Assembly (NCBI GenBank): GCA_027315165.1
Contig: DAHUYN010000019.1
Span: 1 to 32,419, forward strand
Origin: Thermoplasmata archaeon
Lineage (GTDB): Archaea; Thermoplasmatota; Thermoplasmata; Lutacidiplasmatales; UBA184
Direction: 5' to 3'
DNA length: 32,419 bases
The position numbers were made by a program, and so were the translations under genes. Under the pieces are notes generated by a model, which ran no database searches, was not told the DNA's origin, and saw only the letters and a program-made list of their open reading frames with translations. Shown here in pieces: positions 20,254 to 32,419 of this stretch. The number at the start of each line of letters is the position of its first letter. The first letter of the stretch is position 1.

Positions 20254-21651
20254 ATGAGCCGGGGCGACCACAACTCGCGCGTGCGTCTCTTCGGGACCAA
20301 CGGGATCCGCGAGGTCGTCGGCGAGCGGCTGACGCCTCCGTTCGTCGTCCGCGTGGCCGGGGCGATCGCGCGGACGACGCCCATCGGTCCCCCGATCCTC
20401 GTCGGTCGCGACGGGCGGACCTCGAGCCCGGCGATCTCCGCGATCGTCGCCTCGACCCTCGCGCTCGCGGGCCACCGGGTCGTCCAGGTCGGCACGCTCC
20501 CCACGCCGGCGATCCAGTACAACGTCCTCCGGCTCCAGGCGCAGCTCGGCGTCGTCGTGACGGCCTCGCACAATCCCCCCGAGTTCAACGGCCTCAAGTG
20601 CATCGCCGGGGACGGCCTCGAGGTCCTCCGGCCCGTTGAGGAGGCGATCGAGGAGGCGGTCTCGCGCGAGGAGGGGCTCGCCGTGCGCTACGACGCGGTC
20701 GGCGAGGTCGTCGACGACCACCAGGGAGCCCAGCGCTACGTCGACGGGATCCTCGGCCAGGTCGACGTCGCCGCGATCCAGCGGGCCCACCCGCGGGTGG
20801 TCCTGGACTGCGGGAACGGCGCCTCGGTCGTGACGAGCCCGACGCTCCTCCGGCGCCTCGGCTGCCGGTTGGTGACGCTCAACGGCCAGCTCGACGGGAC
20901 GTTCCCGGGCCATCTCTCCGAGCCGACGCCCGAGAACCTCGCCGACCTCGTACGAACGGTCCCGGCCGTCGGGGCGGACCTCGGGGTCGCGCACGACGGG
21001 GACGCGGACCGGGCCGTGTTCGTCGACGAGAAGGGCACCTACCTCCCCGGCGAGCGGATCCTCACCCTCTTGGCCCAGGAGTTCGTGCGCCGACACCCGG
21101 GCGGCGTCGTCGTCACGCCCGTCTCGGCCTCACAGTCCGTCGAGGACGTCGTGCGGGCCCTCGGGGGCGAGGTCGTCTACACGAGGGTCGGCTCACCCGT
21201 CGTCACGAGGGAGATGCAGCGGCGCCACGCCGTCTTCGGGGGCGAGGAGAACGGTGGGCTCATCTTCCCGGCGTTCCAGCTCGCTCGGGACGGCGCGATG
21301 ACGGCCGCCGCGGTCCTCGAGCTGCTCGCGACGCGCGGGCTCACGCTCTCCGAGGCGGTCAAGGACCTCCCGGCCTACACGCTCGTCAAGGAGAAGGTCC
21401 CCTGCCCCGTCGACAAGCGCGAGGCCGTCCTCGAGGCGCTCGCCGCCTCGGCGACCCGCGAGGGCGGCCGGGTCGTGACGCTGGACGGCCTCAAGATCTT
21501 CGTCGAGGACGGCTGGCTGCTCCTCCGCCCCTCGGGCACGGAGCCGCTCATCCGGGTCTTCGCCGAGTCCAAGCAGCCGGAGCGGGCCCGCGCGCTCGCC
21601 CGCGACGGCCTCGAGCGCGTCGGGGCCGCGCTCGCGGCCCTCGGCGCCTAG
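20254..21651 (+). CDS. glmM: Phosphoglucosamine mutase / phosphomannomutase family
   Basis: 465 residues of the alpha-D-phosphohexomutase family with all four domains: RLFGTNGIREVV at the N-terminus, the phosphoserine loop TASHNPPEFNGLK (catalytic Ser105), the metal loop DGDADR (248-253), the sugar-binding loop GGEENGGLIFP, and the phosphate loop RPSGTEPLIRVFAES. The RLFGTNGIR start and overall form fit archaeal GlmM-type enzymes (glucosamine-6-P to glucosamine-1-P) better than PMM/PGM, but specificity is not certain. Such sugars feed S-layer and protein glycosylation, in keeping with the N-glycosylation sequons of the surface proteins next door. ATG 20254 is chosen by homology. Its TAG stop shares a CTAG with the convergent gene's stop. 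Confidence 0.9.
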   Translation: MSRGDHNSRVRLFGTNGIREVVGERLTPPFVVRVAGAIARTTPIGPPILVGRDGRTSSPAISAIVASTLALAGHRVVQVGTLPTPAIQYNVLRLQAQLGVVVTASHNPPEFNGLKCIAGDGLEVLRPVEEAIEEAVSREEGLAVRYDAVGEVVDDHQGAQRYVDGILGQVDVAAIQRAHPRVVLDCGNGASVVTSPTLLRRLGCRLVTLNGQLDGTFPGHLSEPTPENLADLVRTVPAVGADLGVAHDGDADRAVFVDEKGTYLPGERILTLLAQEFVRRHPGGVVVTPVSASQSVEDVVRALGGEVVYTRVGSPVVTREMQRRHAVFGGEENGGLIFPAFQLARDGAMTAAAVLELLATRGLTLSEAVKDLPAYTLVKEKVPCPVDKREAVLEALAASATREGGRVVTLDGLKIFVEDGWLLLRPSGTEPLIRVFAESKQPERARALARDGLERVGAALAALGA

Positions 21652-22937
21652 CGCGTCGGGGTCGGCGCTCGCCGCGTCGCCCGGAGCTCCCGGGCGAGCG
21701 CCTCGCCTCGCGGGGTCAGCCGGTAGACCTTGAGCCGCCTCGGCTGGCCGCGCACGTGACGGACGTCCTCGAGGAGGATGCCGGCCGCGACGAGCCGTCG
21801 GAGGACGTTCGTCAGCGCGTTCTGCCGCGTCCCGAGCGCCGCCGACATCCCGAGCTGGGTGAACCCGAGCGTGGCGACCTCGTCCGATCCGAGCGTCCCG
21901 AGGCCGGCGAGGTGCAGGACGATCCGCTGGGAGAGCCGAAGCGCCTCCCGACCCGGAGCCGTCGACGACGGATCGGGTGCCGCGGCCGCCGACGCCGCGA
22001 CGACGGCCGGCTCGGCGGAGGTGCCGGCGGGCACGACGTCGGGCGCGGCCGCGGGTGGGCCGGCCGGCGCCGCGGACGTCGTGGGCGAGCCGGCCGCCGG
22101 CCGAGGAGCCGGTGGAGCGGGCTCCGTCCCGGGCCCGACGTCAGGGGCCAAGGCGGCGACCTCGGGCACGGCGGCGGGAGCGGGCGCCGGCTCGCGGGCC
22201 GGGCTCGAGGGGGGCTCGGGCTCCTCGCGCCGCCCGAGCCACCGTCCCACCAGGAGGGCCCCGACCGCCGTTCCGCCGATCGCGGCCGCCGCGACGGCGG
22301 CCAGCGCAAGCGCCTCGGAGGCGCCGCCCGTCGGGCTGCTCGCCGCCGCGCCCGTGACGTTGACGGCGACGACGGCGGTCGCATAGTGCCCGCTGCTGTC
22401 GGTGACATTCAGCCGGACGTCGAACGTCCCGGCTCGCTCGAAGGTGTAGCGGATCACGAGCCCGCTGCCGTTCCCCCCGTCCCCGAACTCCCACAGGACG
22501 GAGGGGTAGGTGCCGCTCCCGCCGTTGATGGTCGCCGAGAACATGTCGAGGAACGGCGCGACGCCCCCCTGCGACTGGCTGAGGATCGAGACGCTGAGCG
22601 CGGACGGGACGAGCGAGAGGGGGAGGAACTGGGAGGCGGAGACGTTCCCCTCGAAGGCGACCACCGAGACGTTGAAGGTCCCCGGTCCCGCGTAGCGGTG
22701 GACGGGGTCGGCGTAGGCCGGCCCGGAGCCGTTCGCGAAGTGACCGTCGCCGAAGTTCCAGGAGAAGGCGGTCGGCGTGCCGGGAACGACGGTCGCGGAG
22801 AAGGTGAGCAGGAGCGGGTCCGTCGGGGAGGGCGTGTAGGAGATCGCGACGCTGAAGCCCCCATTGGCGCCGACGTGGGACGGCCCGGCCGTCGCGACCG
22901 CCGGAACGCCGAGAAGGAGGCCGACCGCGAGGCCCAC
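21648..22937 (-). CDS. Membrane-tethered winged-helix protein with PKD ectodomain
   Basis: 429 residues from GTG 22937. Order: hydrophobic N-terminus (signal or anchor), two PKD-like domains (SWNFGDGHFANGSG near 60-75; LWEFGDGGNGSG near 150), a transmembrane helix (ALALAAVAAAAIGGTAVGAL, about 208-232) followed by RWLGRR, a Pro/Ala linker of about 100 residues, and a C-terminal winged helix (LRLSQRIVLHLAGLG, TQLGMSAALGTRQNALTNVL, RRLKVYRLTPRGEALA). The topology puts PKD outside and the DNA-binding domain in the cytosol, like a one-component membrane regulator. The start is doubtful: codons just upstream in frame encode KRRRRYGG and more of the hydrophobic stretch, as a signal peptide would, but contain no ATG, GTG or TTG. 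Confidence 0.83.
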   Translation of the reverse strand: MGLAVGLLLGVPAVATAGPSHVGANGGFSVAISYTPSPTDPLLLTFSATVVPGTPTAFSWNFGDGHFANGSGPAYADPVHRYAGPGTFNVSVVAFEGNVSASQFLPLSLVPSALSVSILSQSQGGVAPFLDMFSATINGGSGTYPSVLWEFGDGGNGSGLVIRYTFERAGTFDVRLNVTDSSGHYATAVVAVNVTGAAASSPTGGASEALALAAVAAAAIGGTAVGALLVGRWLGRREEPEPPSSPAREPAPAPAAVPEVAALAPDVGPGTEPAPPAPRPAAGSPTTSAAPAGPPAAAPDVVPAGTSAEPAVVAASAAAAPDPSSTAPGREALRLSQRIVLHLAGLGTLGSDEVATLGFTQLGMSAALGTRQNALTNVLRRLVAAGILLEDVRHVRGQPRRLKVYRLTPRGEALARELRATRRAPTPTR

Positions 22938-25447: not shown

Positions 25448-26809
25448 TCAGGACTCTCGAGCCGGCTCGACGCCCGGCCGCCGCACGGATCGCTCGGCCG
25501 GACGCCGGGAGGCCCCGCCGGAGCCGCGGGCGGACGGCAATACCGCGGTGACGACGTTCCCGGCGAACAACGCGAGGAACGGCGCCAACACGCCGAGCGG
25601 GCCGAGGGCCGCGACCTCGGCGAAGAGGAGCGGGAGCACGCCGGCGACGAGCCCCACGAGCCCCGCGAAGATCGCCATCGCGCGGCGCGCCGTCGGCGCC
25701 GTCCGCGGCTCGGAGACCATGAAGAGGCCGAAGAACAGCGACGCCGGGCCGAGCGCGCCCGCCTCAAGGAGCGGCACGAGCTGTCCGCCCGCGCCGAGCC
25801 CGACGGCGATCGCGATCGTCACCGGCAGGTAGGCGGCGAAGTAGAACACCGGCATCCGCCAGGTGTGCGGAGCCCTTACGATCAGCACCGCACCGAGCGC
25901 GACCACGAGCGCGGCGGCCGTCGTCCCGAAGCCGAGGTGCCAGCTCGTCGAGAGCCCGAACAGCACGGTGGCCACGGCGATCCCGGCGGCCGCCGGGTTG
26001 AGCACGGGATGGCTGTTCACCCGCAGCACGTGGCGGAGCCCGACCGAGACGATCGCGACCGAGAGCAGCGCGAGATCGACGGTCGCCGGCCAGACGATCA
26101 GGGAGACGAAGAGGCTCGTCGCGAGGGCCGCATCGGGGAACCTCAGCCGGGGGAACCGCACGCGCTGGAACGCGAGGTCGACGATGGCGCCGACGATCGG
26201 GACGGTGACGAGCGGCCCGGCGATCGCCGCGCTCTCGAACCCTCCGACGGAGGCGAGCAGCACGCCGAGGAACAGCCAGACGAGGCGGACCGGGGGAAGG
26301 TAGCGCTTCCAGAGGTCGATGGGACGGAACGGCCGGCGCCGCGAGGAAGACGAAGGCGGGGAGGCGCGCGGCGGCGGCACTGCGGCGACCGGGGGGACCG
26401 GCGTCGCGGGCGAGGAAGCCGGGCGAGCGATCGGGGCCGGGACGGGAGGGAGGGGCGGGGGAGCGGGCGGAACCGCGGCCGGAGGGCTCGGGGGAGTCGA
26501 CGCAGGGTCCCCGGGGCTCCGGTCCACGCTCCTCGGCCGCGTCGGTCCTCGGTGGAGCGTCCGCGAGTTCCGCCAGTACGGGGCGGCGTTGTGCACGGGG
26601 CGTGTCGCGGGGCGCGGCGGTGTCGTCGACGGCTCTCTCGGGAGGGGAGCCGGGGGTCCGAGGTCGGCCTGGGGCCGGTCTGCGACCGGGGGGACCGGCG
26701 CGATCGGGGCGTGCGGGACCCAGTCGCATCCGATACAACGGGGTCCCGGGAGGAGCACGCGACCGCACCGGGGGCAGAAGCGATACTCGGCCCACCCCGC
26801 TTCGGTCAT
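25448..26809 (-). CDS. Zinc-ribbon protein with RnfD/NqrB-like membrane domain
   Basis: 453 residues. A cytosolic zinc ribbon comes first (C12PRC15 and C25IGC28), then a Pro-rich linker (about 32-160), then eight to ten transmembrane helices. The membrane part carries RnfD/NqrB family marks: HPVLNPAAAGIAVATVLFG and SLFFGLFMVSEPRTAPTARR. RnfD/NqrB subunits carry flavin and quinone or redox intermediates in ion-pumping complexes. The covalent-FMN Ser/Thr motif (SGAT type) is not visible here, so the flavin may be bound differently or be absent. No other rnf/nqr subunit is in the window. ATG 26809 overlaps the stop of the 7TM gene as ATGA. It is the third gene of the CuA-PKD operon. Confidence 0.8.
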   Translation of the reverse strand: MTEAGWAEYRFCPRCGRVLLPGPRCIGCDWVPHAPIAPVPPVADRPQADLGPPAPLPREPSTTPPRPATRPVHNAAPYWRNSRTLHRGPTRPRSVDRSPGDPASTPPSPPAAVPPAPPPLPPVPAPIARPASSPATPVPPVAAVPPPRASPPSSSSRRRPFRPIDLWKRYLPPVRLVWLFLGVLLASVGGFESAAIAGPLVTVPIVGAIVDLAFQRVRFPRLRFPDAALATSLFVSLIVWPATVDLALLSVAIVSVGLRHVLRVNSHPVLNPAAAGIAVATVLFGLSTSWHLGFGTTAAALVVALGAVLIVRAPHTWRMPVFYFAAYLPVTIAIAVGLGAGGQLVPLLEAGALGPASLFFGLFMVSEPRTAPTARRAMAIFAGLVGLVAGVLPLLFAEVAALGPLGVLAPFLALFAGNVVTAVLPSARGSGGASRRPAERSVRRPGVEPARES

Positions 26810-27687
26810 CGCGCGGCTCCCTCGACGGACCCCGTCCCCGTCGCGACGAGGCGCCGCGTGGCGCTACGCACCTGGTAGAGGACCACCGAGAAGCTCACGA
26901 GGTAGAGGAGACCCGCGAAGCCGATCCAGGGCACGAGCGGCAGCGCGGCGTAACCGTTCGCCGCGAGGCCGGGCGCGAGCACGCCCAGCACCGCCAGGTA
27001 GGCGGGCGTGCAGGCCGAGCAGCTCGAGAGAAAGCCGATCGGACCCCAGGCGAACGCGCCGGCGAGACGCGCGCCCCAGGTCCCGCGGGCGGGACGGACC
27101 GCGCAGCTGCCGCGGCGCCGCGCCTCGAGGCCGAGGACCACGGCCGAGGACCAGAGGAACCCGAGGAGGCCCAGCGTGACGAGGTCGACCGGCACGATCG
27201 TCCCCGAGAGCGGGGCGACGGCGAGGGAGAAGGCGAGGGCGGTCCACTGGCCGAACGGCGTGTAGACGGTCGTCGGCCCGAGGTAGTTGCCTCGAGGGCC
27301 CTCCCCCCACTGGAGCGAGTGGGTCGCGACGAGCGCCAAGAGGATCCCGCCGGCCCAGAGCGCGAGGAACACGCCCCATCGGGCGCCGCCCTGCAGCGAG
27401 AGGGTGAGGGGCCCGACGAGCGGCCGGACCGCGAAGAGCAGGAGCGCCGCCACGAACAGGGCGAACAGCGCCACGCCCGCCTCCGACCAGACCCCGGCGT
27501 AGTTGGTGAGGTCGACGAACGCCGGCGCGAGCCAGTACTCCGCGAGCGCGATGAACGTGAACGAGAGGACCTCGCGCCCGAGCGGACCCGGGACCTCGGC
27601 CACCACGAGCGGTCGTCGGAGGCCCCTCGCGAGGAGCTCCCGCACGCCGCGCGGCCAGCCTCGAACGACCCCCCCTACGTTCGCCAT
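26806..27687 (-). CDS. Seven-helix membrane protein with an intramembrane CSAC motif
   Basis: 293 residues with about seven predicted helices (near 42-60, 67-89, 101-121, 146-166, 167-186, 207-236, 241-266). Between helices 3 and 4 is a polar, probably outward loop with Tyr, His and Trp (HSLQWGEGPRGNYLGPTTVY). Helix 6 carries GFLSSCSACTPAYLAVLGVL, a CxxC pair in a membrane setting that could bind metal or form a redox disulfide. I do not recognise the family; it is not a haem-copper oxidase subunit I or a typical transporter. ATG 27687 is 15 nt after the CuA-PKD gene, and its stop overlaps the RnfD-like start, so the three proteins are made together. Confidence 0.8.
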   Translation of the reverse strand: MANVGGVVRGWPRGVRELLARGLRRPLVVAEVPGPLGREVLSFTFIALAEYWLAPAFVDLTNYAGVWSEAGVALFALFVAALLLFAVRPLVGPLTLSLQGGARWGVFLALWAGGILLALVATHSLQWGEGPRGNYLGPTTVYTPFGQWTALAFSLAVAPLSGTIVPVDLVTLGLLGFLWSSAVVLGLEARRRGSCAVRPARGTWGARLAGAFAWGPIGFLSSCSACTPAYLAVLGVLAPGLAANGYAALPLVPWIGFAGLLYLVSFSVVLYQVRSATRRLVATGTGSVEGAAR

Positions 27688-27702
27688 GAGGATCGGGCGG
27701 GC

Positions 27703-30144
27703 TCAGGGCCTCCCTTTCGGGCTCGCGGGGGCGTCCTGTGGGGACGACGGGGCGGGCGCGGTTCGTGCGGCGCCGGCCGTTGTGGCGGGTGCGACGCGAC
27801 CGAGCGCGGCCTTCCGGCGCCGCAGCTGGACGCGGAGCATCAAGAGCAGGCCCGACAGCGCCACCGTGCCCATCAGCTCGAGGGCCGCGGTGTCCGGGTC
27901 GCTGACGCCCGTGAAGCTCCAACCCGAGCCGATCGGTCCGCCGCCCCCCGAGGTCGCGGCCCCGCCGGAGACGTTCACCCAGAGGCTCTGGTTCACGGCC
28001 CGGCCGAAGCTGTCGTTCGTCGCGACGGTGACGAGGTAGTGGCCCGCCTTCGTGTAGGTGTGGTTCTGGGGCGACGGGCCGCGCGTCGTCGTCCCGTCGC
28101 CGAAGCCCCACAGCGGCGAGGTCGCGTAGACGCCCGAGCCGCCCGTGACGTTGAGCGTGAAGGCGACGTCGACGGGCGGTAGCTCCGTCGTGCGGTAGTT
28201 CGAGAGGACGGTCGCGAGCGGTGGCGGGTCGAGGACGAGGCGCGCGGTCGCGTTCGCCTGGGCCCCGAGCGCGTCCGACACCGAGGCCCGCACGACGACC
28301 GGGCCGCTCACGTTCGCCGCGTAGGTGTGGTTCGACAGCGCGCCGGTCGTGACGCTGCCATCCCCCCAGGTCCACGAGACCGGCCCGTACGGTCCGGTCC
28401 CCCCGACGATCGAGGCCGCGCCGGAGACGGGGAGCGGAGCGTCCCCGACGGTCTCGTTGAGGAGGAGGGTGAGCTCGAGGCCGGTGACGCGCACGGTCGC
28501 GAGCGCCGTCGCCGACGCGCCGTTCGCATCCGTGACCTGGACCGTGACGTTGTAGACGCCGAGGGCCGCGTAGGTGTGCGCGACGACCGACCCCGAGCCG
28601 CTCGCGCCGTCCCCGAAGGTCCACGAGGGCGTCGCGTAGGGAGCGGTACCGCCCTCGACGGAGACCTCGGCGGTGATCGGGAGCGGCGGGGCCCCGATCG
28701 AGGGGTCCTCGACGAGATACGCCGCCAGCTGGGCACCGCTGGCGCCGCTGACCGTGACCGAGGTCGTGTTCTCGCCGACGTGGCCGGCCGCGTCGACGAC
28801 GTAGACCGTGACCTCGTAGGCGCCGTTCACCGAGTAGGTGTGCGTCGTCGAGGCGCCGCTGCCGTAGCTTCCGTCGCCGAAGACCCAGGTCGCCCGGTAC
28901 GGCGCGGTGCCGCCCCCAGCGGTCTCCGACAGCGCGACCGAGAGCGGCGCCGCGCCGCTCGCGGGCGTCGCCGTCACCGTCACCGGGAACGTCCCCGTCG
29001 CAGCGGCCACGGAGAGCGTGGCGGAGGCCGTCGCACGAGCCCCGCTCGCGTCGGTGACGGTGACGGCGGGGCCGTAGACGCCCGGCGCCGTGTAGAGGTG
29101 CGAGAGGGAGGCCGTCGCGCCCGTCGACCCATCGCCGAGGTCCCAGGCGTAGCGGTAGGGCGTCGAGCCGCCCGACGGCGTGGCCACGAGGGTCGCCAAC
29201 GTCGGGGCGGACCCGGAGGTCGGTGAGACCTGGACTGAGACGGTGAGGGAGGTCGCGGAGGTGACCGAGATCGCGACCGAGGCGCTCGCGGTGTAGGACT
29301 TGGCGTCGGTGACCGTGACCGTGGCCGAGTAGCTGCCCGACAGCGAGTAGGTGTGGCTCTCGTTGAGGAGCGTCCCCGCCGCGCTCCCGTCCCCGTAGTT
29401 CCAGCTCACCGTGTACGGCGCGGTCCCGCCGGTCACGCGCGCACTGAGCGCGACCGGGAGGGGCGCAGCGCCCGAGGTGGGCGTCGCGCTCGCGGTGACG
29501 CTCGGGATGGAGGTGGCGGGGACGATGTTGAGGACGAAGGCCTCCATGCCGCCGTGCCCAGGGCCGCAGGAGATCGTGCACCAGATGTGCTGGTGCGTGT
29601 AGGCCGTCGAGGGGGCGGTGAACTGCCCGGTGACCCACTTCCCGACGGGCGCGTTCACGGTGACGAGCTGCCGGCCCGTCGCGTTGAGCTCGACGCCGAG
29701 CCCGTGGTAGGCCGTCCCCCCGACGCCCGGATTCGCCTTGAGGCTCGTGGCGTTGATGTGGACGGTCCACCCTTCGTAGACCGTCCAGTCGGAGCTGTCG
29801 TTGGCTCCGGTCGCCGTGTTGACGATCCAAAAGCCGTAGTCGTACATCGAGACGTTGAAGAACTGCTCGTGGCTCGAGTTGGCATCCGGCGCGACGGGTC
29901 CCAGCCAGCCTCCCGGGCAGCCGACGGCGCCCGGGAGCGAGCACCGGACCCCTGCCGGCGCCCCGACACCGTAGGCGGAGAGCGCCAGGAGTCCCGCGAA
30001 GAAGACCGCGAGGCCCCGTCGGCTCGCACGCTGCCACGGTCGGTCGGTCGCCGCCAGACCCCGAGGGGCTGGCGGTCGAGCGCGCTCGAGGGTCCCGAGG
30101 GCCCCCGACGGGAGCGCCCCGGGCGTGATCGGCCGCCGGTGCAT
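27703..30144 (-). CDS. CuA-type cupredoxin fused to six PKD domains, membrane-anchored
   Basis: 813 residues. A basic N-terminus and hydrophobic segment (GLAVFFAGLLALSAYGVGAP, about 44-62) target the cell surface. Residues about 85-208 form a cupredoxin: SMYDYGFWIVNTATG, a first His in AYHGLGVE (H147), and HQHIWCTISCGPGHGGM, giving C189-x3-C193-x3-H197-x2-M200. This is the full CuA ligand set of cytochrome c oxidase subunit II and nitrous oxide reductase (CxxxCGxxHxxM). Six PKD domains follow (SWNYGDG, AWDLGDG, TWVFGDG, SWTFGDG, SWTWGDG, LWGFGDG), then a transmembrane helix (LELMGTVALSGLLLMLRVQL) and a basic, Pro/Ala-rich tail. ATG 30144 is leaderless from the box at 30168. No oxidase subunit I is nearby, so the electron partner is open. 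Confidence 0.88.
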   Translation of the reverse strand: MHRRPITPGALPSGALGTLERARPPAPRGLAATDRPWQRASRRGLAVFFAGLLALSAYGVGAPAGVRCSLPGAVGCPGGWLGPVAPDANSSHEQFFNVSMYDYGFWIVNTATGANDSSDWTVYEGWTVHINATSLKANPGVGGTAYHGLGVELNATGRQLVTVNAPVGKWVTGQFTAPSTAYTHQHIWCTISCGPGHGGMEAFVLNIVPATSIPSVTASATPTSGAAPLPVALSARVTGGTAPYTVSWNYGDGSAAGTLLNESHTYSLSGSYSATVTVTDAKSYTASASVAISVTSATSLTVSVQVSPTSGSAPTLATLVATPSGGSTPYRYAWDLGDGSTGATASLSHLYTAPGVYGPAVTVTDASGARATASATLSVAAATGTFPVTVTATPASGAAPLSVALSETAGGGTAPYRATWVFGDGSYGSGASTTHTYSVNGAYEVTVYVVDAAGHVGENTTSVTVSGASGAQLAAYLVEDPSIGAPPLPITAEVSVEGGTAPYATPSWTFGDGASGSGSVVAHTYAALGVYNVTVQVTDANGASATALATVRVTGLELTLLLNETVGDAPLPVSGAASIVGGTGPYGPVSWTWGDGSVTTGALSNHTYAANVSGPVVVRASVSDALGAQANATARLVLDPPPLATVLSNYRTTELPPVDVAFTLNVTGGSGVYATSPLWGFGDGTTTRGPSPQNHTYTKAGHYLVTVATNDSFGRAVNQSLWVNVSGGAATSGGGGPIGSGWSFTGVSDPDTAALELMGTVALSGLLLMLRVQLRRRKAALGRVAPATTAGAARTAPAPSSPQDAPASPKGRP

Positions 30145-30409: not shown

Positions 30410-32419
30410 CTACGTGAACTTCACACGGAACAGGTGGCCCGTCCCCGCGATCGTGAACGTGCCGGTCGAGGGCGTCGCGGTGAACCCGGTGGAGCTCACC
30501 GTGAACGTGTAGGTTCCGTTCGGCAGGTGGAAGGCGATGCTCGTGGCGGTCGAGCTGATCGTCGTCGAGCCGATCGTGACCTTCCACGACGTCCCGGTCG
30601 GGAGGCCCGTCTCGGAGAACGTCACGAGGTAGCGGACCTGTGTGAAGCGGACGGAGACCTTGACGAACGTGCCGCTCACGGTGACCGTCCCGTGGTAGGC
30701 GCTGCCGAGGATGTGCCAGCCCGCGACGTTCGCGATCGAGTAGGCGTACGTTCCGTTCGGGACCAGGAAGGAGAGCCTCGCCGACGTCGTCGTGATCGTC
30801 GTCGCCCCGAGGGTCACGCTCCAGGACGTGCCCGCCGGCAGGCCCGTCTCGGAGAAGATGACAAGGTAACGGACCTGCGAGAACGTCATCGAGACCGTCG
30901 TGCCGGCGCCGTTGAGGGTCAGCGTCCCCGAGTAGTGCCCCGACGAGAGGTGCCAGCCCGAGACGTCCGCGACCGTGTAGCCGACGGTCCCGTTCGGCGC
31001 CTCGAAGACGATCGTGCTCGTCGTCGAGGAGAGCGTCGTCGCACCGAGCGTCACGCTCCAGCTCGTCCCCGAGGGGAGGCCGCTCTCCGAGAAGGTCACG
31101 GCGTAGGTGACCTCCGTGTAGGCGAGCGTCGACGCGAGGGCGCCGCCCGAGACCGCGAGGGATCCGGCGTAGGCCATCGAGCCCTGGTGCCAGCCCGAGA
31201 GGTCCGCGATCGCGTAGCTGTACGTCCCGTTCGGCTCCGAGGCGAACGTCAGCGTGTCCACGCCGCCGTCCGTCGTCCGGTTGAGGGTGGTGCCGTCGAA
31301 CGTCACGCTCCAGTTCTGGCCGGCGGGAAGGCCGGACTCGGAGAACGTCACCGCGTAGGTCACCTGGTTGTACGTGACCCCCTCCGAGAGGGCCCCGCCG
31401 CTCACCGCGAGCGCGCCCGCGTACGGGAGGGTCGCCTCGTGCCAGCCCGAGACGTCGGTGATCGCGTAGGCGTAGGTCCCGTTCGGCTCCGACGCGAACG
31501 AGAGCGTGTCGACGCCGCCGTCCGTCAGCAGGCTCAGAGCCGTCCCGTTGAACGTCACCGTCCAGGTGAGCCCGGACGGCAGGCCCGACTCGCTGAACGA
31601 GACCCCGTAGGTCACCTGGGCGAACGTGAGCGAGACCGTCGCGCCCGCCGCCGAGATCCCCTGCGTGCCCGAGTAGCTGCCGCCCGACAGGTGCCAGCCC
31701 GACACATCCGCGATCGAGTAGGCGTAGCTCCCGTTCGGCTCCTGGAACGTGATCGTGCTCGTCGTCGACGACAGTGTCGACACGCCGACCGTGGCGCTCC
31801 ACGAGGTCCCGCTCGGGAGTCCGCTCTCCGAGAACACGAGCGCGTACGTCACCTGGCCGAAGGTCAGGTCCGTCGCGACGTCACCGCCGGCGACGGTGAG
31901 GGATCCCGAGTACGACCCCGTGGTCAGGTGCCAGCCGGGCACGTCCGCGACCGAGTAGCTGTACGTCCCGTTCGGACCGGTGAAGGCGATCGTGCCGGTT
32001 GTCGACGAGAGCGTCGTCGCGCCGAGCGTGACGCTCCAGCTGGTCGCGCTCGGGAGTCCCGTCTCGACGAACGAGAGCGAGTAGTTCACCTGCTGGAAGA
32101 CGAGGGGGAGGTTCACCGCGGCCCCGTTCACGTTCACGGTGCCGGCATAGCTGCCCGAGCTGAGGTGCCAGCCCGGCACATCCGCGACCGAGTAGCTGAG
32201 CGTTCCGTTGGGCTCGTTGAACCCGATGGCGCTGCTCGTCGAGGTCGAGGTCGTCGCACCGAGCGTGACGGACCAGGAGGTCCCGCCGGGAAGGCCGGTC
32301 TCGGAGAACGTCACCGCGTAGAGCACCTGCGTGTAGCTCAACGCGACCGAGAGCCCGGCGCCGGCGACCGCGAGGCTGCCCGAGTACGGCAGCGTCGCCT
32401 CGTGCCAGCCCGAGAGGTC
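30410..32419 (-). CDS. C-terminal part of a large secreted repeat protein
   Basis: The frame is open from the window end (32419) to TAG at 30410-30412, so 669 residues of a longer protein are visible and its start lies outside. The visible part is one incomplete and eight consecutive beta-rich repeats, each beginning YxVxFSESGLPSGTSWSV and passing through PNGTYxYxVADVSGWH. No cysteine and no membrane anchor occur; the protein ends in HLFRVKFT. Repeats of this type are familiar from secreted Thermoplasmata and Sulfolobales proteins, including thermopsin-like proteases, so it is probably a surface or secreted adhesin, S-layer-associated protein or protease extension. NxT/S sequons recur. The TTG at 32341 is inside a repeat and is not the start. 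Confidence 0.88.
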   Translation of the reverse strand, partial: DLSGWHEATLPYSGSLAVAGAGLSVALSYTQVLYAVTFSETGLPGGTSWSVTLGATTSTSTSSAIGFNEPNGTLSYSVADVPGWHLSSGSYAGTVNVNGAAVNLPLVFQQVNYSLSFVETGLPSATSWSVTLGATTLSSTTGTIAFTGPNGTYSYSVADVPGWHLTTGSYSGSLTVAGGDVATDLTFGQVTYALVFSESGLPSGTSWSATVGVSTLSSTTSTITFQEPNGSYAYSIADVSGWHLSGGSYSGTQGISAAGATVSLTFAQVTYGVSFSESGLPSGLTWTVTFNGTALSLLTDGGVDTLSFASEPNGTYAYAITDVSGWHEATLPYAGALAVSGGALSEGVTYNQVTYAVTFSESGLPAGQNWSVTFDGTTLNRTTDGGVDTLTFASEPNGTYSYAIADLSGWHQGSMAYAGSLAVSGGALASTLAYTEVTYAVTFSESGLPSGTSWSVTLGATTLSSTTSTIVFEAPNGTVGYTVADVSGWHLSSGHYSGTLTLNGAGTTVSMTFSQVRYLVIFSETGLPAGTSWSVTLGATTITTTSARLSFLVPNGTYAYSIANVAGWHILGSAYHGTVTVSGTFVKVSVRFTQVRYLVTFSETGLPTGTSWKVTIGSTTISSTATSIAFHLPNGTYTFTVSSTGFTATPSTGTFTIAGTGHLFRVKFT
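30413..32320 (-). repeat. Eight tandem protein repeats in two length classes
   Basis: Unit boundaries (minus-strand order): 32320-32084, 32083-31847, 31846-31610 (79 residues each), 31609-31358 and 31357-31106 (84 residues, with an inserted TDGGVDTL and FASEPNGTY), 31105-30869 and 30868-30632 (79), and a terminal 73-residue unit 30631-30413 that lacks the SGWH motif. The incomplete unit at the window edge ends in the style of the 84-residue class. DNA identity is lower than protein similarity, so the array is not freshly duplicated. Confidence 0.85.

Follow-up and report, generated by a model that had tools for sequence, protein, structure and literature searches.

To our knowledge, natural CuA centers are found in respiratory oxidases, nitrous oxide reductases, and some nitric oxide reductases. 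CuA serves electron transfer in those oxidases and reductases for which its role has been established. The account given in PMC6189053 describes the canonical center as Hx34Cx3Cx3Hx2M and places a CuA center in the cupredoxin PmoD, outside an oxidase, where it forms at a homodimer interface with noncanonical ligands. A second point of comparison is offered by two-subunit Nqr/Rnf-like complexes, in which, following the description in PMC10979944, a membrane-anchored extracytosolic flavoprotein is combined with an RnfD-like subunit that has not kept its own flavinylation site. Here, we analyzed the 32,419-nucleotide contig DAHUYN010000019.1 (contig C10; the whole stretch is hereafter “the window”) from the 2.04-Mb genome of a Thermoplasmata archaeon (GCA_027315165.1), and we describe a three-gene operon on its minus strand (25448-30144) that encodes, head to tail, a protein with a CuA-type cupredoxin domain on a chain of PKD domains (P1), a polytopic membrane protein (P2), and an RnfD/NqrB-like membrane protein (P3).

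By sequence and profile comparison, the cupredoxin domain of P1 is homologous to CuA subunits, and P1 and P3 are the most constant pair at the loci that we compared, with P2 being optional. We propose, with about an even chance of being right, that P1 and P3 form a complex through which electrons pass between the respiratory membrane and the cell exterior. With cytochrome c oxidase subunit II (PF00116), P1 shares a homologous domain with a Cx3CGx2H core, a membrane anchor, and the best fold matches, but it has no Pfam match to that family, no COX1 nearby, PKD repeats, a different ligand spacing, an uncertain alignment of the first His, and, in most copies, Gln in place of the Met ligand. As in the two-subunit complexes of PMC10979944, a carrier gene stands beside an RnfD/NqrB-like gene whose product has a cytosolic domain and no conserved flavinylation site; unlike what is described there, the carrier is a CuA-type cupredoxin-PKD protein instead of a flavinylated RnfG-like protein, and the cytosolic domain of P3 is a zinc ribbon instead of an NAD-binding domain. 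Pfam recognized neither an RnfG-like flavinylated carrier nor an NAD-binding domain in P1 or P3. P1 resembles PmoD as described in PMC6189053 in carrying a CuA-type site in a cupredoxin outside an oxidase and differs from it in keeping the canonical Cys/His order. Both domains are already known; our literature searches turned up no account of the P1-P3 pairing, of the PKD architecture, or of the Gln-type site.

A CuA-type domain in P1

A reading made from the sequence letters alone (hereafter, the “sequence-only reading”) had placed a full set of CuA ligands in P1, and H147, C189, C193, H197, and M200 are indeed at these positions. A search with a P1 profile yielded 27 strong matches, all of which we took as P1 loci, so that the counts of association given below describe P1-bearing genomes only. 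Among these copies, H147, C193, and H197 are kept in 27 of 27 and C189 in 26, the single loss being that of the decayed gene at L107. Across the 27 copies, the spacing from the first His to the first Cys is Hx37-41C, and it is x37 (counted by hand) in COX2 of the same genus.

Profile comparison links the domain to oxidase subunits. Alignment by hhalign with six same-genus COX2 proteins scored 97.1% (E = 5e-11), with the Cx3CG..H stretches aligned, versus 0.1% for a small control of two halocyanin-like cupredoxins. A search with the P1 domain in relatives matched a genuine same-genus COX2 at E = 3e-4, and a 13-row P1 profile matched COX2 proteins in five more genomes without P1 (E = 2.9e-6 to 2.2e-4), as well as two further proteins, weakly and without their being read, in G192 and G249. 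In the reverse direction, tblastn with the COX2 of the window genome matched P1 at 2 of the 27 loci (about 2e-4 and 3e-4). As to structure, the low-confidence model of the domain fits oxidase subunit II folds best: 10 of its first 11 Foldseek matches were terminal-oxidase chains of the subunit II kind (such as 2yev_B and 1cyx, the latter being CyoA with an engineered CuA site), with only four matches reaching E = 0.001. Pfam does not recognize the cupredoxin domain (no PF00116 match), phmmer with the domain found no relative in the PDB, and a profile search of the PDB gave one chance-level match only (E = 0.28). We infer that P1 may bind copper as a binuclear center.

The six PKD domains claimed for P1 were recovered by Pfam as six PKD stretches, and the CuZ propeller domain that accompanies CuA in nitrous oxide reductase was absent from P1: apart from PKD, Pfam and NCBIfam matches to P1 were of the Ig-like or repeat kind. 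No search for NosZ elsewhere in the genome was made. In relatives, a conserved YG...P...RC stretch comes after the N-terminal segment, with no obvious cleavage site. Judging from these features, the segment may be retained as a membrane anchor, which would keep the CuA domain near the membrane, as in oxidase subunit II. The C-terminal hydrophobic segment was not detected in the last 150 residues of four longer relatives (L068, L105, L106, and L109).

Pairing of P1 with an RnfD/NqrB-like protein

P3 follows P1 on the same strand at 20 of the 27 loci, a count that includes a relic fusion (L107). Three of the remaining seven end at a contig end (L051, L103, and L116), L063 is undecided, and three have no P3. 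P2 lies between P1 and P3 at seven loci (the window, L005, L006, L050, L054, L055, and L059), directly after P1 at L063, and upstream of P1 at L068. The reading frames and strand are as given before (Table 1), as are the gap and the ATGA overlap from which joint expression had been proposed, and the same P1-P2-P3 order, for which a search in relatives had been suggested, occurs at six other loci. The gene neighborhood recurs, but the three genes are not one obligate unit, the core being P1 and P3. The retention of four of five ligands in at least 26 of 27 homologs, together with the P1-P2-P3 order at six other loci, argues for more than chance. No COX1 was present in the stretches read at any of the 27 loci, and the window itself, as noted earlier, shows no oxidase or other Rnf subunit; the oxidase gene cluster of this genome, with its own CuA subunit (a normal COX2), lies on another contig (C33).

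At L107 (8573-9883), the CuA domain and an RnfD-like domain share one frame. We considered this as a Rosetta-stone fusion and rejected it: the gene has Arg in place of C189, the PKD part and P2 are gone, and the P3 membrane domain lacks its beginning, so we treat the gene as a relic. It is still included among the 27 loci and the 20 pairs.

The resemblance of P3 to RnfD/NqrB is weak on P3 alone, with the membrane domain scoring 25.3 bits against PF03116, just under the cutoff of 27.7. A P3 paralog in the same genome, 42% identical over the domain, passes the same profile at 40.9 bits. P3 carries the NPAAAG and EPRTAP motifs and retains the RnfD-like marks ascribed to it. The zinc-ribbon pattern, also claimed earlier, is present in P3 and in 18 of 20 P3 reading frames, the exceptions being the relic L107 and L113. 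In a tree, the P1-paired P3 proteins form one clade apart from the lone paralogs (20 versus 13, none misplaced, support 1.0). P1 and P3 also diverge in parallel: across 19 loci, with the relic excluded, their distances correlate at r = 0.87, a value reached in 0 of 2000 permutations, without correction for species history. These lone RnfD-like paralogs (L024 9147-10343 and relatives) are a family of the genus with varying neighbors and share the C-terminal tail YDPVN.VTVTETDLYED.G.AEFNGDD; the copy in the window genome lies near FixC- and EtfAB-like genes, as read by eye.

The flavinylation motif is given in PMC10979944 as [ST]GA[ST]. It was absent from the membrane parts of the 20 P3 frames (one of which, at L102, ends at the contig end) and occurred twice in P3 linkers. 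A search for ApbE covered 11 of the 19 P1-bearing genomes and was negative in all 11; it was positive in 7 of 14 control genomes. No other Rnf/Nqr subunit was recognized around P1 among the called genes, which were read by eye without an Rnf profile search. The missing membrane motif and the failure to find ApbE thus argue that P3 is no ordinary Rnf/Nqr subunit, and a view of the module as a usual Rnf complex is not borne out.

P2, P4, and a NapH-like polyferredoxin

P2 matched no family in Pfam or NCBIfam, and its model had no fold match in the PDB (best E = 2.3); no homolog of known function was found. Its seven helices, as proposed by the sequence-only reading, appear as seven hydropathy segments, versus six long helices and an extracytosolic beta part in the AlphaFold model. 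The CxxC that had been described as intramembrane (C223 and C226) sits where a helix begins, in a part of the model that has low confidence. The two motif cysteines align in all 13 members; eight of these have CxxC, and in the other five the cysteines are adjacent (CC). In relatives, a further protein, P4, is encoded directly after P3 (L005, L006, L054, and L055) or nearby on the opposite strand (L100 and L109). It has a GACC motif conserved in 7 of 7 aligned members, with more cysteines after it in 5 of 7. We do not claim homology of P2 and P4, because the 83 columns that hhalign aligned, at 70.7%, do not include the Cys motifs.

Upstream of the module at L006 and L055 lies a gene for a NapH-like polyferredoxin, a membrane protein of 714 to 730 amino acids. 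The C-terminal part of this protein in the two relatives matches NapH/MauN-type polyferredoxins (TIGR02163; E = 3e-6 and 26.8 bits versus a cutoff of 213 for the L006 protein), from which it differs by a long extra membrane part; it is absent from the window. In the window genome, the NapH-like gene is on contig C22, directly after a P4 gene, and at three loci of other genera (L064, L066, and L067), it adjoins relatives of P2 and P4, P2 at L067 being identified by a match to the P2 profile. The family was matched in 205 of 400 genomes of the class at E = 0.001, many of these matches, with E near 1e-4, probably being merely ferredoxin-like. These neighborhoods tie P2 and P4 to a membrane iron-sulfur (Fe-S) branch, which might serve quinol oxidation or the reduction of Cu(II) in the manner of CcoG.

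Distribution of the module

The P1 profile matched 24 of 400 genomes of the class, five through COX2 only and 19 with P1, one as the relic. All 19 belong to one archaeal family, across five genera; this family includes Lutacidiplasmatales genomes. A search of 389 genomes of the phylum, a set that overlaps with the 400, gave no match outside the family. A further scan covered 84,980 named species; because its seeds were two short motifs, it reached close relatives only, and it gave nine loci, eight labeled Thermoplasmata and one labeled only “bacterium.” P2 was found in 13 of the 400 genomes, one of them outside the family as a weak match (E = 5e-4) with an internal stop.

COX1 was matched in 94 of 103 family genomes. 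Among 98 family genomes searched, 79 had no P1, and COX1 was matched in 72 of those 79. These numbers weigh against P1 being needed for oxidase assembly in general, though not in special cases. Two P1-bearing genomes, G068 (98% complete) and G340 (86% complete), yielded no COX1.

A second COX1-type protein of about 900 amino acids (L157 14993-17701 and similar) occurs in a subset of the family genomes. We made no use of its negative association with P1 (0 of 18 intact-P1 genomes versus 25 of 80 others, Fisher p = 0.005; 1 of 19 versus 24 of 79, p = 0.037, with the relic genome taken as P1-positive), which was sorted by eye from E-values, includes fragments, and is uncorrected for relatedness.

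Features and neighboring genes in the window

The coordinates of the operon are collected in Table 1. At 21648-22937 on the minus strand lies a PKD protein with a membrane segment, whose C-terminal part resembles a winged helix-turn-helix by eye; Pfam confirms two PKD domains only, and the protein may couple a surface sensor to a transcription factor. Positions 30410-32419, also on the minus strand, hold the start of a large surface protein built of repeats with the phrase FSETGLPSGTSWSVTLG, which the window edge cuts off, and similar repeats are present in L025 (10353-13376).

Table 1. Coordinates of the P1-P2-P3 operon and its parts in the window.
Feature	Position	Strand	Description
P1, 813 amino acids	27703..30144	-	N-terminal membrane segment, CuA-type cupredoxin domain, six PKD domains, C-terminal membrane segment and basic tail
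CuA-type domain of P1, residues 71-213	29506..29934	-	Ligands H147, C189, C193, H197, M200
P2, 293-amino acid polytopic membrane protein	26806..27687	-	Conserved C223-x2-C226, nearly invariant C195
P3, 453 amino acids	25448..26809	-	Zinc-ribbon pattern (CPRCG..CIGC) at the N terminus, Pro-rich linker, RnfD/NqrB-like membrane domain
P1-P2 gap, 15 nt	27688..27702	-	Between P1 and P2
P2/P3 stop/start overlap, ATGA, 4 nt	26806..26809	-	Between P2 and P3

Discussion

The sequence-only reading had put forward a surface redox module or a copper-dependent respiratory branch. Its CuA-type domain outside an oxidase stands, the gene neighborhood recurs, P1 and its neighbors probably have a redox or copper-related role at the outer face of the membrane, a usual Rnf is not supported, and electron transfer is our proposal. 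None of the outcomes that the reading had named as refuting it came up. In such a scheme, the CuA domain of P1 would be an extracytosolic one-electron carrier, positioned on the outer side of the membrane in the manner of oxidase subunit II, with the PKD chain as its outward scaffold. P3, RnfD/NqrB-like and without covalent flavin, would be the membrane partner of P1, and P2, together with P4 in relatives, would connect the pair to the NapH-like polyferredoxin branch that is common to these archaea. We infer that P1 and P3 would bind each other and pass electrons, in the favored direction from a quinol or Fe-S donor to CuA and on to an external acceptor. We favor electron transfer because this is the role of CuA elsewhere, because the ligands are under strong constraint, and because a published two-gene system is analogous. 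The frequent pairing of P1 with P3 and their parallel divergence also speak for the complex.

Several observations weigh against this proposal. Of the 27 copies, 20 have Gln at position 200, 6 (among them that of the window) have Met, and 1 has Leu, so that, of the ligand set claimed earlier, the two His and two Cys hold across the family and the Met does not; Met-to-Gln mutants of Thermus CuA are reported to retain a CuA center. The hhalign alignment pairs H147 with a column other than that of the COX2 ligand His. The model of the domain is poor, with a predicted local distance difference test (pLDDT) score of 53.4, and the majority of its Foldseek matches are CyoA chains, which have no CuA site. 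No redox cofactor is assignable to P3, the cytosolic domain of which resembles a zinc ribbon and not a flavin or Fe-S domain, and no acceptor, donor, or multiheme partner was identified. P1 stands without P3 at L104, L111, and L112, and the module is patchy, being present in 19 of the 400 class genomes. Last, the correlation between P1 and P3 distances is a raw one that takes no account of species history.

The main rival, which we regard as unlikely yet worth serious attention, is copper handling. P1 would capture or hand over copper outside the cell, the NapH-like protein would reduce Cu(II) as CcoG does, and P2 and P4 would pass Cu(I) on to supply oxidases or other cuproproteins. CcoG is described in PMC7558416 as a membrane Fe-S protein and a cupric reductase required for normal levels of cbb3 oxidase, and the conserved CxxC or CC of P2 and GACC of P4 would fit such a route, as would a CtaB-like gene (read by eye) that adjoins P1-P3 at L101. 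A Gln at the axial position should also be of less consequence in storing copper than in tuned electron transfer. However, P1 has the ligands and the fold of an electron-transfer center, COX1 was matched in most family genomes without P1, and G068 and G340 bear P1 and showed no COX1. A link to copper monooxygenases, drawn from the Angelarchaeales as presented in PMC9038741, was considered only, and CuMMO genes were not searched for in the window genome.

A mainly structural or adhesive role for P1 at the cell surface, with the copper domain as a stabilizing or sensing module, is improbable: PKD proteins are indeed frequent here, with two more beside the operon, but such a role would explain neither why four ligands are each kept in at least 26 of 27 copies nor why P3 is so often the partner (20 of 27). 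Least probable of all, P1 could take the place of subunit II and dock to the chromosomal heme-copper oxidase, as its homology to COX2 and the wide presence of COX1 in the family would allow, but the normal COX2 in the oxidase cluster of the window genome, the lack of COX1 in the stretches read at all P1 loci, and the P1-bearing genomes G068 and G340 speak against it.

Returning to electron transfer by P1 and P3, Sheridan et al. (PMC9287336) report no cytochrome c genes in the Thermoplasmatota genomes that they examined. We tentatively suggest, while holding it to be somewhat doubtful, a transmembrane redox complex of a new kind: in these aerobic archaea without cytochrome c, the CuA protein would replace the flavinylated extracytosolic subunit beside an RnfD/NqrB-like subunit and act as a copper-based electron outlet or inlet at the cell exterior, with a Gln-ligated CuA variant in most copies. 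A conserved CuA protein with an RnfD-like partner would, if true, extend both families and supply natural Met-to-Gln CuA variants for study. The pair suggests a new route for electrons across the membrane, and it would indicate that uncultured archaea from acid soils and mine drainage have a respiratory or copper-related pathway that has gone unrecognized.

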